Below, piece after piece: positions 18,554-58,674 of a stretch of 64,000 nt of DNA. The stretch spans positions 1-64,000 of the forward strand of contig NZ_JACVBX010000004.1 of assembly GCF_014852585.1 (NCBI RefSeq). Reading direction: 5' to 3'. The DNA is from Pseudomonas sp. PDM18. GTDB taxonomy: Bacteria > Pseudomonadota > Gammaproteobacteria > Pseudomonadales > Pseudomonadaceae. Below the pieces are notes generated by a model that ran no database searches, was not told the origin of the DNA, and saw only the letters and a list, made by a program, of their open reading frames with translations. Position numbers and translations under genes: made by a program. Every line of letters starts with the position of its first letter. Positions within the stretch are counted from its first letter, which is position 1.

Positions 18554-18740
18554 CCACGGAACAGCCGTGGTCAGGTGTGGAAACCTGTGAGCTTTAAGCA
18601 TTCGCCATAGCAGGGAATGGCCCGGCCTTTTCAAAGGCCGGGCCGACTCTGGCTGTCCATGGCGGACCGTGCGAGGCGGGCTTCGGCCCGGCCGGTCTTT
18701 GGCTTAAAGCTCCCGGTTTTCCACCCTTGCACGGTCCGCC
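18554..18740 (+). ncRNA. Candidate structured RNA or leader upstream of the Bro-N gene
   Basis: In order: CCACGG-aacag-CCGTGG (18554-18570); CAGGT...ACCTG (18572-18587); GAGCTTTAAGC (18589-18599), perfectly complementary to GCTTAAAGCTC (18702-18712); a 12-bp stem GGCCCGGCCTTT / AAAGGCCGGGCC (18619-18644); GGCGGACCGTGC (18661-18672), perfectly complementary to GCACGGTCCGCC (18729-18740); and a CGGGC-TTCG-GCCCG tetraloop hairpin (18677-18690). The two long-range pairings cross, so they are either a pseudoknot or alternative folds. No terminator-like T-tract follows. It may equally be a DNA-level inverted-repeat element. Confidence 0.45.
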
Positions 18741-18801
18741 TCCCTTTCCGGGATGGCGGCTTTCCAGCTGTAGCCAACTGAGCTGTACAGGGAGAGACCG
18801 C

Positions 18802-41414: not shown

Positions 41415-41462
41415 GGCGTCCTCGTAAGCCGGTTCAAGGCCGAGCCGAGCGATGCTCAGGCT

Positions 41463-41530
41463 AGGCAAAAATAAATTCAAAAGCGGAGTTTACGTGCAGT
41501 AAATGAGCATTTTGAATTTGTTTTTAACGC
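41463..41530 (+). repeat. Variable-arm hairpin element, copy A
   Basis: Flank AGGCAAAAATA (41463-41473), arm AATTCAAAA (41474-41482), 27-nt core from GCGGAGTTTACGTGC to GTAAATGAGCA (41483-41509), complementary arm TTTTGAATT (41510-41518), flank TGTTTTTAACGC (41519-41530). The core has an inner TTTAC/GTAAA stem. The core differs by one base from copy B at 57470-57537, while the arms are unrelated in sequence. Confidence 0.8.
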
Positions 41531-41546
41531 CGCGTGAGCGAGCGCA

Positions 41547-41565
41547 GGCCGGCCTGGGGCCGGCT
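41547..41565 (-). terminator. GC-rich hairpin at the end of rlmA
   Basis: GCCGGCC / GGCCGGC with a 3-nt loop directly after the rlmA stop. No T-tract follows, so termination here would be weak or helped by the neighbouring hairpin element. Confidence 0.5.
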
Positions 41566-42374
41566 TCAGGGTTCTTGGCGTTCCAGCCAATCGTAGCGTA
41601 CCGCGACCGTCACCTCGAAGGGCTCGGCAAGGATGCGCTCGCGCCGCTCGGGGTTGACCCGCCAGCCGTGGGGCGTCATCGCCAGCAGGTGCTCGCGGGC
41701 TTCGCGGGTGTGCAGCGGCAGCTTGAAGCTCAGTTGTTCGGTGTGCGCCAGTTTCAGCTCTTCGGGCAGGTCCGCGAGGTGCTTGTCCTCGACGTACTCG
41801 CGAACTTCGTCGTACAGGCGCTGGCGCAGTTCCAGCAGGTGGTCGCGCGCCGGGCCCAGGCGCAACACGCCGCCGCCGGGAGTGAGCAGGCGAGCCGCTT
41901 CCTTCCAGTCGATCGGGCTGAACACGCTGGCCAGCAACTGGCAGGAAGCATCGGCCAGCGGCACACGGGCCATGCTGGCGACCATCCAGGTCAGCTGCGG
42001 AGCGCGCTTGCAGGCGCGTTTGACGGCCTCGCGGGAGATATCCAGCGCATAGCCGTCGGCCTGCGGCAGGGCCTCACCGAGTTGTGCGGTGTAATAGCCC
42101 TCGCCACAGCCTATATCCAGCCAGCGCCCTGGAGCGCGCTCGGCGGCCAGTTCGGCCAGGCGCTTGGCCAGCGGAGCATAGTGGCCGGCGCCAAGGAAGT
42201 GCCGGCGTGCCTCGACCATGGCGGCGTTGTCGCCCGGGTCGAGGCTCTTCTTGTGCTGCACCGGCAGCAGGTTCAGGTAACCCTGGCGGGCGCGGTCGAA
42301 GCGGTGGCCGGCGGAGCAGGCGACGCCGTTGTCGACTTCAGTCAGCGCCTCGCGGCACAGCGGACAGATCAGCA

Positions 42375-42378
<4 letters not shown>
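41566..42378 (-). CDS. rlmA: 23S rRNA (guanine745-N1)-methyltransferase RlmA
   Basis: 270 aa. N-terminal zinc finger (CPLCREALTEVDNGVACSAGH, about 5-25), then GYLNLLPVQ and a SAM-binding Rossmann domain (WLDIGCGEGYYTAQL, about 86-100). The typical FSPIDWKEAARLLTPGG segment follows. Methylates G745 of 23S rRNA. Its start overlaps the stop of the 61-aa gene by 4 bp, so it is translationally coupled. Confidence 0.92.
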
Positions 42379-54603: not shown

Positions 54604-57303
54604 CTAGATACTGATGCGCACCGGCATGCTCGGCTGGCCGCCGTCGGAGAGGATGTCCACCAGGGCGGTCTGGATGCGCTTGCACAGCTCCGGGTCCGAC
54701 AGCGGCTGGTTGTGCGCGTCGGTGACGAAGAACACGTCCTCCACGCGCTCGCCCAGGGTGGCGATCTTGGCGTTCTGCACCGACAGGTCGAAGTCCAGGA
54801 ACAGCCCGCCGATGCGCGCCAGCAGGCCGGGGCGGTCCGGTGCGGTCACCTCCAGCACGCTGACCTGACGGGCCGCGTCGGTGGAAATGGTCACCTGCGG
54901 ATTGAAGGCGAAGTGCTTCAGCTGGCGCGGGACGCGGCGCTGGATGATGGTCGGGTACTCGTCCGGGTCCTTCAGGGCATTGACCAGACCCTCGCGAATT
55001 TCCTCGACCCGGCTGGGATTGTTGCCGATTGAGCCGCCATCGGCATCGAGCACAATGTAGGTGTCGAGGGTGAACAGGCTGGTGGAAGTGATGATCCGCG
55101 CATCCTGAATGTTCAGGTTGAGCTGGTCCATCGCCGCCACGGTCACGGCGAAGAAGTCGTGCTGGTCGCCGGCATAAATGAAAATCTGCGTGCCGCCCTC
55201 GAACTCGCGCTGGGCGGTTTCCTTGATCAGCACCAGCGGGGTGCCGTCGTCCGGATGCTGGAGGATGGCTTCGGTGTGCCAGGCGACGTCCGCCGCGCTG
55301 TGGCGCAGGAAGTAATCGTCGCCCAGCTGGCTCCAGAGCTGCTCGGCGTCGTCCTGGTCGATGCCGCCGCGCACCAGGATGTCGATGGCCGCGCTCTGCG
55401 TCTGGCGGATCTGCTCCTCGCGGTCCACCGGGTTCTCCAGGCCGCGGCGCAGCGCGCGCTTGGTCTCGGTGTAGAGCTGGCGCAGCAGGCTGGCGCGCCA
55501 GGAGTTCCACAGCGTCGGGTTGGTGGCGTTGATGTCGGCCACGGTGAGCACGTAGAGGTAGTCCAGGTAGGTCTGGTTGCCCATCAGCTGGGCGAAGTCG
55601 TAGATCACCTGTGGATCGGACAGGTCCTTGCGCTGGGCCGTGGTGGACATGATCAGGTGGTTCTGCACCAGCCAGGACACCAGGTTGGTGTCCCACGGCG
55701 GCAACTGGTGGCGCTGGCAGAAGTGCTCGGCGTCCACCGCGCCCAGTTCCGAGTGGTCGCCGCCGCGGCCCTTGGCGATGTCGTGGTAGAGGCCGGCGAT
55801 GTAGATCAGCTCCGGCTTGGGCAGGCGCTCCATGATCTTGCTGGCCAGCGGGTACTTCTCGGCCATGTCCGGGCGGCGCAGCTTGCGCAGGTGCTTGATC
55901 AGGTTGAGGGTGTGCGCGTCGACTGTATAGATGTGGAACAGATCGTGCTGCATCTGCCCGACGATCAAGCCGAATTCCGGCAGGTAGCGGCCGAGGATGC
56001 CGTAGCGGTTCATTCGCCGCAGGTTGCGGTGGATGCCTTCCTGACACTTGAACAGCTCGATGAACAGGCTGGTGTTGCGGATGTCGTGGCGGAAGTCGTC
56101 GTCGATCAGGTGACGGCTGTCGCGCAGCAGGCGAATGGTGTCGGCGCGCACGCCCTTGATCTCCGGGTGCTGGGCCAGCAGCACGAAGATTTCCAGCAGG
56201 GCGAACGGGGTGCGCTTGAAGACGTTGGCGTGGGTGACCTCCAGATAGCCGTCGCGCAACTGGAAGCGGCTGTTGAGCGACTGGATCTGGCCGTTCTCGC
56301 CGGCCCGCAGGATGACTTCCTCGAAGTGCTGAGTGATCAGGTCGTTCAGCTCGGAAACGGCCATCACCACCCGGTAGTACTTCTGCATGAAGCGCTCGAC
56401 CGCCAGCTTGGCGTCGTTGCCTTCATAGCCGAGCATCCCGGCGATGCGCCGCTGGTGGTCGAACAGCAGGCGGTCTTCGGCGCGGCCGGCGAGCATGTGC
56501 AGCGCGTAGCGGACTTTCCAGAGGAATTCCTGGCTGGAGGCCAGCACCGCGCATTCGCTCTCCACCAGGAAGCCTTCGCGGACCAGGGCATGCAGGTTGA
56601 GGCTGCCGAAGTGGCGGCGGGCGACCCAGAGCAGGGTCTGGATGTCGCGCAGGCCGCCGGGCGACCCCTTTACGTTGGGTTCGAGGTTGTATTCGGTGTC
56701 ATTGTATTTGGTGTGGCGGTGAATCTGTTCCTTGCGCTTGGCGAGGTAGAACTGTCCGCTGGGCCACATCTGCTTCGTGCTGGTGGCTTCGAGCATGCGC
56801 AGGCGCAGGCTGTCCGGGCCGGAGATGGTCCGGCACTCCATCAGGTTGGTGACTACGGTGAGGTCTGCGCGCGCTTCCTCGGCGCACTCGGCCACCGAGC
56901 GCACGCTCTGGCCGACTTCCAGGCCGATGTCCCAGAGCAGGGTGAGGAAGCCCTCGATGGGCTCGCGGAAGCTTTCCTGGTCCTCGCTGTCGAGCAGGAT
57001 CAGCAGGTCGATGTCCGAATGCGGATGCAGTTCGCCGCGCCCGTAGCCGCCCACGGCGACCAGCGCGATGTCGGCGTCGTCGCCCCAGTCGAAGCGATTC
57101 CAAGCCTGCTGCAGGATCTGGTCGACGAACCAGGCGCGGTCCTCGATCAGTCGGCGGATGTCGCGGCCGCCATTGAAGCGGGCGTCGAGCACCTCGTTGG
57201 CCTGACGAATGGCCTTCTTGAAGGCGGCGATGGGGCTGGATTTGAGGGCCAGTTCCGCCTGGAACTGCCCACGGTCGAACAACTCGGGATCCACCTGCGG
57301 CAT
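54604..57303 (-). CDS. glnD: Bifunctional uridylyltransferase/uridylyl-removing enzyme
   Basis: 899 aa from ATG 57303 (RBS AGGAAGGCC). Nucleotidyltransferase domain [20 protein letters not shown] (about 92-112), HD domain [20 protein letters not shown] (about 450-470), and two C-terminal ACT domains (about 705-790 and 815-895). It senses glutamine and sets the uridylylation of PII proteins, controlling nitrogen assimilation. All catalytic motifs are intact. Confidence 0.95.
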
Positions 57304-57442
57304 GGCGGCCTTCCTGATCAATGGCTTAGGGGAGGGCAGGGGCAAGAGGGCAACCGGGCCTATGCGCATGGCGCCAGGCCCGATGGCTGTGCCGGGCCGG
57401 GATGTATGTTCTACCCAGCCGTCGGCGAGATTGCAAACCGCA

Positions 57443-57564
57443 CAAAATCTGCTGCGCGTCGGCATAACTGCGTTAAAAACAGGCGAGGACTGCTCATTTA
57501 CAGCACGTAAACTCCGCGTCCTCGCCTGTTTTTGCCTTGTTCTGCTCTAGCTCGCAAGATTTTG
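57443..57564 (-). repeat. Variable-arm hairpin element, copy B, within a longer palindrome
   Basis: Read on the minus strand: flank AGGCAAAAACA (57527-57537), arm GGCGAGGAC (57518-57526), 27-nt core GCGGAGTTTACGTGC...GTAAATGAGCA (57491-57517), arm GTCCTCGCC (57482-57490), flank TGTTTTTAACGC (57470-57481). Outer copies of CAAAATCT (57443-57450) and its complement (57557-57564) bound the palindrome. It starts 9 bp after the map stop and has a T-run, so it can terminate map. Confidence 0.8.
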
Positions 57565-57573
57565 AACAATCAT

Positions 57574-58356
57574 TCAGGCTGAGGTGCGCGGGAAGCTTTC
57601 GTCGTTACGCAGGGTCAGGATCTCGTAGCCGTCGGCGGTGACCAGCACGGTGTGCTCCCACTGCGCGGACAGCTTGCGGTCCTTGGTGATGGCGGTCCAG
57701 CCGTCGCCCAGCAGGCGAGTTTCCGGTCGGCCCTGGTTGATCATCGGCTCGATGGTGAAGATCATGCCTTCCTTGAGTTCCAGGCCGGTGCCGGCGCGGC
57801 CGTAGTGCAGCACCTGCGGCTCCTCGTGGAATACCTGGCCGATGCCGTGGCCGCAGTACTCGCGCACCACGGAGAAGCCGTTCTTCTCGGCGTACTTCTG
57901 GATCACTTCGCCGATGTCGCCCAGGCGCGCGCCGGGCTTGACTACGTCGATGCCCTTGTACATGCATTCCTGGGTGATCTGGCACAGGCGGTCAGCCCAT
58001 TCCGGGGTCTTGCCGACGGAGAACATCTTGCTGGTGTCGCCGTGGTAGCCGTCCTTGATCACGGTGACGTCGATATTGACGATGTCACCTTCCTTGAGCG
58101 GCTTCTCGTTGGGGATGCCGTGGCACACCACGTGGTTGATCGAGGTGCAGATGGATTTGGGGAAGCCCTTGTAGTTCAGCGGCGCGGGAATGGCCTTCTG
58201 CACGTTGACGATGTAGTCGTGGCAGATACGGTCCAGTTCGTCGGTGGTGACGCCGGGCTTGACGTGCTCGCCGATCATTTCCAGCACTTCGGCGGCCAGA
58301 CGGCCGGCGACGCGCATTTTCTCGATGTCTTCGGGCGTCTTGATGGTGACGGTCAT
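57574..58356 (-). CDS. map: Methionine aminopeptidase type I
   Basis: 260 aa. MetAP signature: DIVNIDVTVIKDGYHGDTSK (two metal-binding Asp), YCGHGIGQVFHEEPQVLHYG (metal His) and EGMIFTIEPMINQG (metal Glu). Removes N-terminal Met from nascent proteins. Divergent from rpsB, with about 320 bp between start codons that hold the rpsB promoter and leader. Confidence 0.95.
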   Translation of the reverse strand: MTVTIKTPEDIEKMRVAGRLAAEVLEMIGEHVKPGVTTDELDRICHDYIVNVQKAIPAPLNYKGFPKSICTSINHVVCHGIPNEKPLKEGDIVNIDVTVIKDGYHGDTSKMFSVGKTPEWADRLCQITQECMYKGIDVVKPGARLGDIGEVIQKYAEKNGFSVVREYCGHGIGQVFHEEPQVLHYGRAGTGLELKEGMIFTIEPMINQGRPETRLLGDGWTAITKDRKLSAQWEHTVLVTADGYEILTLRNDESFPRTSA

Positions 58357-58499: not shown

Positions 58500-58674
58500 G
58501 GGTTTTGTTCTGGCCGAGGTTGTGGTATAAAGCGCCCCGCTCTGAAGGCTACGGCCATTTCGGAGCATTAACCCACACATGCATCGACACGATGGCCTGG
58601 GTGCCTTTCGACACAGTCGGAGGGTTGGCCGTTGGGATGCATGGAGGCCTAACCCGACTTATCGAGGAACTATC
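58500..58674 (+). promoter_or_regulatory. rpsB promoter and 5' leader
   Basis: A TATAAA near 58526 with a weak -35 (TTTTGT, about 17 bp upstream) is a plausible promoter. The leader then holds an 8-bp inverted repeat CATGCATC (58578-58585) / GATGCATG (58636-58643) around a G/C-rich segment. In gammaproteobacteria the rpsB leader is bound by S2 for autoregulation, and this structure fits that role. Confidence 0.5.

Follow-up and report, generated by a model that had tools for sequence, protein, structure and literature searches.

Two hairpin elements beside stop codons

The window analyzed here, a stretch of 64,000 nucleotides from Pseudomonas sp. PDM18, carries two copies of a hairpin-forming element, each adjoining the stop codon of a gene (Table 1). 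Copy A adjoins a methyltransferase-like gene, and copy B lies between a methionine aminopeptidase-like gene (map) and a glnD-like gene, its model end overlapping about 2 nt of the stop codon of the upstream map-like gene.

Table 1. Copies of the element in the window and the genes around them
Feature	Positions	Strand	Remarks
Copy A, whole element	41425..41565	+	covariance-model match, 121.4 bits; helices paired from ~41427 to 41565
Copy A, apical hairpin	41483..41509	+	conserved internal loop GCGGAG / TGAGCA
Copy A, left 9-nt arm	41474..41482	+	AATTCAAAA
Copy A, right 9-nt arm	41510..41518	+	TTTTGAATT
Copy B, whole element	57434..57575	-	covariance-model match, 137.1 bits
Copy B, apical hairpin	57491..57517	-	with conserved internal loop
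Methyltransferase-like gene	41566..42378	-	stop codon adjoins copy A; named from sequence reading; host context
Methionine aminopeptidase-like gene (map)	57574..58356	-	stop codon adjoins copy B; named from sequence reading; host context
glnD-like gene	54604-57303	-	next downstream of map-like gene

In the central parts of the two copies (41463-41530 on the plus strand and 57470-57537 on the minus strand), the initial annotation had recognized a shared left flank (AGGCAAAAAyA) and right flank (TGTTTTTAACGC), a 27-nt core with a single difference, and arms that pair within each copy and are dissimilar between the copies. The sequence reads as claimed: the cores differ at one base (A/T), and the arms are AATTCAAAA/TTTTGAATT in copy A and GGCGAGGAC/GTCCTCGCC in copy B. 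The core pattern is matched twice in the window as against no match in 100 dinucleotide shuffles, and RNA folding of the plus strand yields z = -8.76 for copy A and -5.68 for copy B. This hairpin core is real but, as comparison of the copies indicates, is in each case only the centre of an imperfect palindrome of ~140 bp, with terminal repeats and with predicted covarying helices parted by several conserved internal loops.

Architecture of the element

In the consensus rod derived from an alignment of 74 copies, compensatory double changes were detected in 25 of the 34 predicted pairs. Read inwards on the plus strand, the rod begins with the outer helix, followed by a loop of the approximate form GCGAGC/GCGCAG and a variable helix. 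A further loop, AAGGC/AACGC, precedes the variable helix to which the arms belong; next come a GA/GA mismatch pair, found in the majority of copies, a short helix and the loop GCGGAG/TGAGCA, with the apical stem TTTAC/GTAAA innermost. The flanks originally described as conserved (AGGCA.../...TTTTTAACGC) turn out to be the next conserved internal loop together with a variable helix. The "fixed core" holds for its loop, given that GCGSAG/TGAGCA is kept in 26 of the 30 own-genome copies (the exceptions being L137, L157, L159 and L160), but not for the apical stem, which covaries, with compensated changes to TTGAC/GTCAA, TGTGC/GCACA and others among the same 30 copies. Moreover, the usual GA/GA mismatch is fully complementary in some copies, including copy B (GAGGA...TCCTC).

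The outer helix, with 83-93% Watson-Crick pairing in the 30 own copies compared to 27-46% after shuffling, doubles as the terminal inverted repeat, exemplified in Pseudomonas by GAACCTGTTTACGATCT...AGATCGTAAACAGGTTC. Past the model ends, pairing in 76 copies equals that of mismatched controls, which led us to reject a palindromic extension into the flanks, in the form of either a pre-existing hairpin target or an inverted target duplication, that had been hinted at by a few loci (L136, L141, L151 and L019). An anchored-extension score with lenient gaps was discarded as a measure of extent because it ran to the sequence end in copies and controls alike.

Some copies carry additional sequence. 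A one-sided insert of ~60 nt in the left arm (around AGGCTGGCCCGAAGGGTGAGCGCCAGCGAATCAAA) was observed in L167, L168 and L169 and also in L017, L018, L021, L033 and L090; orthologues of copy B occur with and without it, as a modular sub-variant. In the Alistipes/Rikenellaceae copies L051, L054, L064, L066, L110 and L115, a second, seemingly covarying hairpin of ~30 nt (GGGGNTGACTAAA...TTAGCCANCCCC) is located directly upstream.

Copy number and phyletic spread

The genome of origin yields 32 covariance-model matches at E <= 0.01, of which 30 score above 57 bits, and 24 of 25 Pseudomonas genomes have one or more at E <= 1e-4, with 45, 40 and 43 copies in the genomes denoted G009, G014 and G020, respectively. 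Across the sampled Gammaproteobacteria, 119 of 274 genomes and 100 of 222 genera are matched at the same E threshold; the copy numbers from this class-wide scan, in which filtering was more stringent and 11 candidates were scored per genome, are floors. Thus, the proposal of a family with many copies is borne out by both the pattern search and the covariance model, and the element is neither limited to the two copies in the window nor made up of arms that fail to pair.

The expected presence in other gammaproteobacteria was likewise found, but the element is not confined to this class. Among the matches listed in a core-pattern scan of named genomes are Bacteroidota (Alistipes, Tannerellaceae, Prevotellaceae, Chitinophaga and others), Mariprofundales, Nitrosomonadales and Vibrio. 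The covariance model matches all 40 loci supplied to it, most of them from groups such as these, with 49 matches at E of 3.1e-7 or better, scores to which the pattern-fetched core contributes and among which are three loci of the training set. Most of these matches cover the full model, with the centre alone matched in L066 and L039, and the outer loops are recognizable in many, although not all, of the named-genome loci. The loci L013-L131, at least as many as which match in named genomes, were fetched with the exact core pattern, so that the invariance of the core in the alignment A1, like the identity of the core among named genomes, is by construction; freer variation of the core is seen in model matches from the own and other genomes, the model itself having been built from A1. 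Related species are included in the alignments A1 and A3-A6, and orthologues in A5.

Matches were also found in 13 plasmid records; E. coli genomes and phage records searched with the model yielded none. For all its abundance in the sampled class, the element has no Rfam match at the sites tested: none of the 4227 families matched copy A or copy B at gathering thresholds, and at E up to 5 nothing overlapped the core hairpin of seven other loci. Searches of the literature by sequence letters and by topic showed no description of the element among the papers listed.

Mobility and insertion sites

At the site of copy B, between map and glnD, the element is present in 7 of 25 Pseudomonas genomes and missing in 18; three of the seven filled sites have the ~60-nt left-arm insert, and one of the 18 genomes without the element at this site carries a different copy in that gap, further downstream. 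For 16 other loci of the own genome, 10 of 95 orthologous regions in six relatives are filled and 85 are not, as judged from 150-218 nt inspected 3′ of the stop codon. Furthermore, one Nitrosomonadales MAG contains near-identical copies with different flanks. The mobile palindrome that the initial annotation offered as one guess among several is the one that these filled and empty orthologous sites favor.

The consensus of the ends is CTYA|GAACC...GGTTC|TNAG (51 left and 50 right ends). In 38 copies chosen because both ends match the terminal-repeat motif, a set with a few orthologous pairs, the flanks form identical 3-bp direct repeats in 15 cases (mean 5.3 and maximum 12 in 2000 shuffles), and the middle base of the 3-bp flanks agrees in 25 (mean 10.9, maximum 20). 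From these flanks, the insertion target appears to be CTNAG, with a 3-bp TNA duplication, although an exact repeat in only 15 of the 38 counts against the explanation that we develop below. Together, the length of ~140 bp, the lack of a transposase gene, the terminal inverted repeats, the target-site duplication and the empty sites make a strong case for a mobile, MITE-like element.

With respect to gene context, assigned with a codon-usage script rather than from curated annotation, co-directional genes flank 27 of the 30 own copies (20 antisense and 7 sense to them), and in 26 of these 27 the model end is at most 15 nt from the upstream stop codon. In a set of 53 loci from relatives, a few of them orthologous to own loci, a position could be assigned to 46, the core being unrecognized in the other 7; 38 are co-directional, and 24 of the 38 are within 15 nt of a stop. 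This proximity would follow from the target itself, because TNA is part of both C-TGA-G and C-TAA-G and its duplication regenerates the stop codon, combined with the loss of insertions that harm genes. With the origin taken at position 1, the copies in three complete genomes are distributed between the replication strands 36:16 in G019, 24:21 in G009 and 23:20 in G020, so that a general strand bias, seen in one genome of the three, was discarded.

In relatives, the post-stop position of our element is taken by REP-like palindromes (around GTAGGAGCGAGCTTGCTCGCGAA) in L276, L279, L319, L321 and L322, which gives such positions the appearance of common insertion points for unrelated hairpins.

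Covariation at different sites and among orthologues

The claim that the arms fully covary withstands a much larger sample. In the 30 own copies, whose alignment was fitted to the model structure, 95.9% of 1018 pair cells are paired, compared to 74.2% in shuffled and 30-45% in slid controls; the respective values for the alignment A1 are 93.9% of 2514 cells, 75.8% and 35-41%. None of 500 shuffles of A1 or A2 reaches any of five observed fold measures.

For a closer look at the stem changes, copies were divided by their flanks into orthologues (at least 25 shared flanking 11-mers) and occupants of other sites (at most 3), the pairs in between being omitted. At an identity of at least 0.93, the 73 stem differences between copies at different sites comprise 32 compensated, 21 pair-keeping and 20 pair-breaking ones (54 pairs), as opposed to 2, 17 and 15, respectively, of 34 between orthologous copies, a comparison that involves 23 non-independent pairs and is not set against an explicit neutral expectation. 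The pair L217/L220, with non-matching flanks, was not counted among the orthologues. Differences across the full set of 28 orthologous pairs affect 51 of 1080 unpaired sites and 53 of 1680 paired letters; hence conservation between orthologues is no greater in the loops than in the stems. Element and flanks diverge to a similar degree. The original notion that something acts on the stem rather than on its sequence is upheld, with the refinement that compensation is a feature of differences between sites, those between orthologous resident copies being mostly uncompensated.

The fold is also strand-specific. Wobble pairs counted on the plus strand are G.T in 64 and A.C in 22 cases (3000 cells from 91 copies, some of them orthologous), and in A1, 50 and 24, respectively. 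The plus strand is energetically favored in 27 of 30 own copies, and in 64 of 71 and 46 of 49 in further tallies, an excess due in part to the conserved loop letters. Given the difference in compensation between different-site and orthologous copies, together with the wobble asymmetry, the fold seems to be selected for mobility rather than for host use, and a role of the fold as a requirement for mobility is supported to the extent that comparison of sequences can do so. Compensation would build up along the lineage of moved copies, and the resident copies look like decaying DNA. The two classes of copies form a natural experiment, in which different-site copies display what transposition selects and orthologues what the host keeps.

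A link to IS5-family insertion sequences

A search for half-elements recovered deleted or insert-bearing copies and a lead in the locus L108 that pointed to an insertion sequence in Pseudomonas sp. EpS/L25 (G298). This ~910-bp IS5-family element has a DUF4096 frame and a DDE frame: one open frame matches PF13340 (4.2e-22) and another PF13586 (6.5e-12), the pieces falling below the NCBIfam whole-protein cut-offs. Its ends are GGGTTTGTCTGAAAAGTCG, flanked by CTA/TAG. The Halomonas copy L041 starts with GGGTCTGTCTGAAAAGTCG, identical to these ends at 18 of 19 positions, and the Onishia copy L075 shares TAGGCTTTGTCTGAAAAGTCGACG (24 letters) with a second, apparently disrupted copy of the same IS type. 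The flanks of the IS copy in L383, CTA/TAG, fit a 2-bp TA duplication, unlike the 3-bp TNA of the element; for ISPsp10 of the IS427 group, inserted beside TAA, a TA duplication is reported (PMC4133298).

In Pseudomonas, PF13340 is matched above cut-off in 1 of 25 genomes (G002), PF13586 in none of 9, and PF01609 in 3 of 7 (G000, G019 and G021). Neither PF13340 nor PF13586 has an above-cut-off match in the tested genomes with at least 40 copies (G009, G014, G019, G020 and G021), G009, G014 and G020 have none of the three families, and searches with these families retrieved no partner for the GAACCTG-type ends of Pseudomonas. When the neighboring frames of 131 loci were clustered, the biggest group was ABC-transporter-like, a common gene family, found at 11 loci and at no constant distance. 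Plasmid searches by end sequence retrieved no transposase with the same ends; one plasmid copy adjoins an IS630-family gene. The two PF01609 elements of the own genome (L347 and L350) were rejected as the partner because their ends differ. By resemblance, both are IS1182-like, with frames of 480 and 475 aa that match PF01609, and their ends, CCCAGGCTGTGTAAAAAC and GATTCTGTTGAAAAAG, are similar in style to those of our element without being the same. Thus, a partner is motivated for one branch only, given that the IS ends match Halomonadaceae copies and the Pseudomonas searches gave none, and for this Halomonadaceae-type branch mobilization by the IS5 family is likely, judging from the ends.

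Proposed mode of spread and alternatives

We consider it probable that the element represents a non-autonomous, MITE-like family of ~140 bp that is moved in trans by an IS5-family transposase and requires its fold in cis. Under this scheme, the transposase would act on the terminal repeats, and the folded plus strand, as RNA or single-stranded DNA, would be a cis-acting requirement at some step of mobilization, such that mainly folding copies would give rise to new ones. Insertion at CTNAG would duplicate TNA and restore C-TGA-G or C-TAA-G stops, and the loss of insertions that harm genes would leave the remaining copies beside stop codons. With MITEs of IS5-family insertion sequences the element shares small size, absence of genes, intergenic location, terminal inverted repeats and a short target duplication; it differs in that its interior recurs from Gammaproteobacteria to Bacteroidota, its helices covary, and no partner was found in most genomes tested. 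If the fold is indeed needed for mobility, a DDE-type element would depend on single-stranded structure, outside the usual picture of MITEs.

Against this scheme, a DDE transposase that works on double-stranded ends would have no need of an interior that folds and is conserved, which leaves the role of the fold unexplained. A different, less likely possibility is a transposable structured RNA or single-stranded DNA, that is, an old module whose folded plus strand, with at least three conserved loops, drives its own spread and has been carried between phyla with varied transposon ends. If so, the partner would be an RNA-binding or hairpin-binding mobility factor rather than simply an end-binding transposase.

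The location of the element could, alternatively, reflect a resident cis-acting RNA of the host, namely a bidirectional terminator or 3′-end stabilizer that follows stop codons and is kept for gene expression. A strong hairpin adjoining stop codons of mostly co-directional genes, the A-run and T-run that flank the inner stem in many copies, and the other hairpins that relatives carry after the same stop codons are all compatible with such a function. However, the presence of the element is polymorphic among Pseudomonas relatives, both orientations occur (27 sense and 38 antisense in the 65 co-directional loci of the own genome and relatives, a few being orthologous), other pairs often stand in place of the A/T runs, and the stem changes of orthologous resident copies are mostly single, with 18 of these 41 breaking a pair. 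We therefore regard a host RNA as improbable, and the terminator family or target for a protein or RNA that the initial annotation also entertained is not our leading reading, in view of the polymorphic sites and the two orientations.

Comparably improbable is the absence of any selection on the fold, with the arms being kept complementary by templated correction of quasi-palindromes through template switching in DNA. Although the GA/GA mismatch has turned complementary in some copies, including copy B, and double changes far exceed single ones among distant copies, such correction would also remove the conserved internal loops, yet these are retained in the majority of copies and in many copies of other phyla; furthermore, it should act on resident orthologues, which show mostly single changes, and the excess of G.T over A.C is strand-specific.

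Like REP/REPIN sequences, the element is a dispersed intergenic palindrome with a strand-specific fold that probably matters, and its own genome has one Y1_Tnp gene. Nevertheless, mobilization by a RAYT (Y1 tyrosine) transposase via a single-stranded hairpin is very unlikely: the own RAYT is not flanked by the element within 3.3 kb, no RAYT-like frame was seen in the other collected loci, a 3-bp duplication does not fit the chemistry of Y1 transposases, which is not known to duplicate the target, and there is no general replication-strand bias outside G019. The REP sequence itself is conserved; the stems of the element vary. Integron attC sites, which are recognized as folded single strands, likewise have variable stems and conserved extrahelical bases; the element differs from them in occurring as single dispersed copies between host genes, with a target duplication and with no cassettes seen.

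The R178 repeat of Pseudomonas fluorescens (101 bp, G+C 61.86%, intergenic, with internal inverted repeats of 11 bp; PMC2718517), present in 18, 28 and 9 copies in SBW25, Pf0-1 and Pf-5, respectively (PMC2718517, Table 3), is comparable to the element in length and copy number and might be the same element, a comparison made by description rather than by sequence; its description states no covariation, mobility or wider spread (PMC2718517).

Elsewhere in the window, a t44 RNA match (RF00127, 75.3 bits) is located at 58556-58653 on the plus strand, upstream of a ribosomal protein S2-like gene. A match to C4 antisense RNA (RF01695, 71.9 bits), a phage-type antirepressor control RNA, at 18655-18746 on the plus strand suggests a prophage or satellite nearby.
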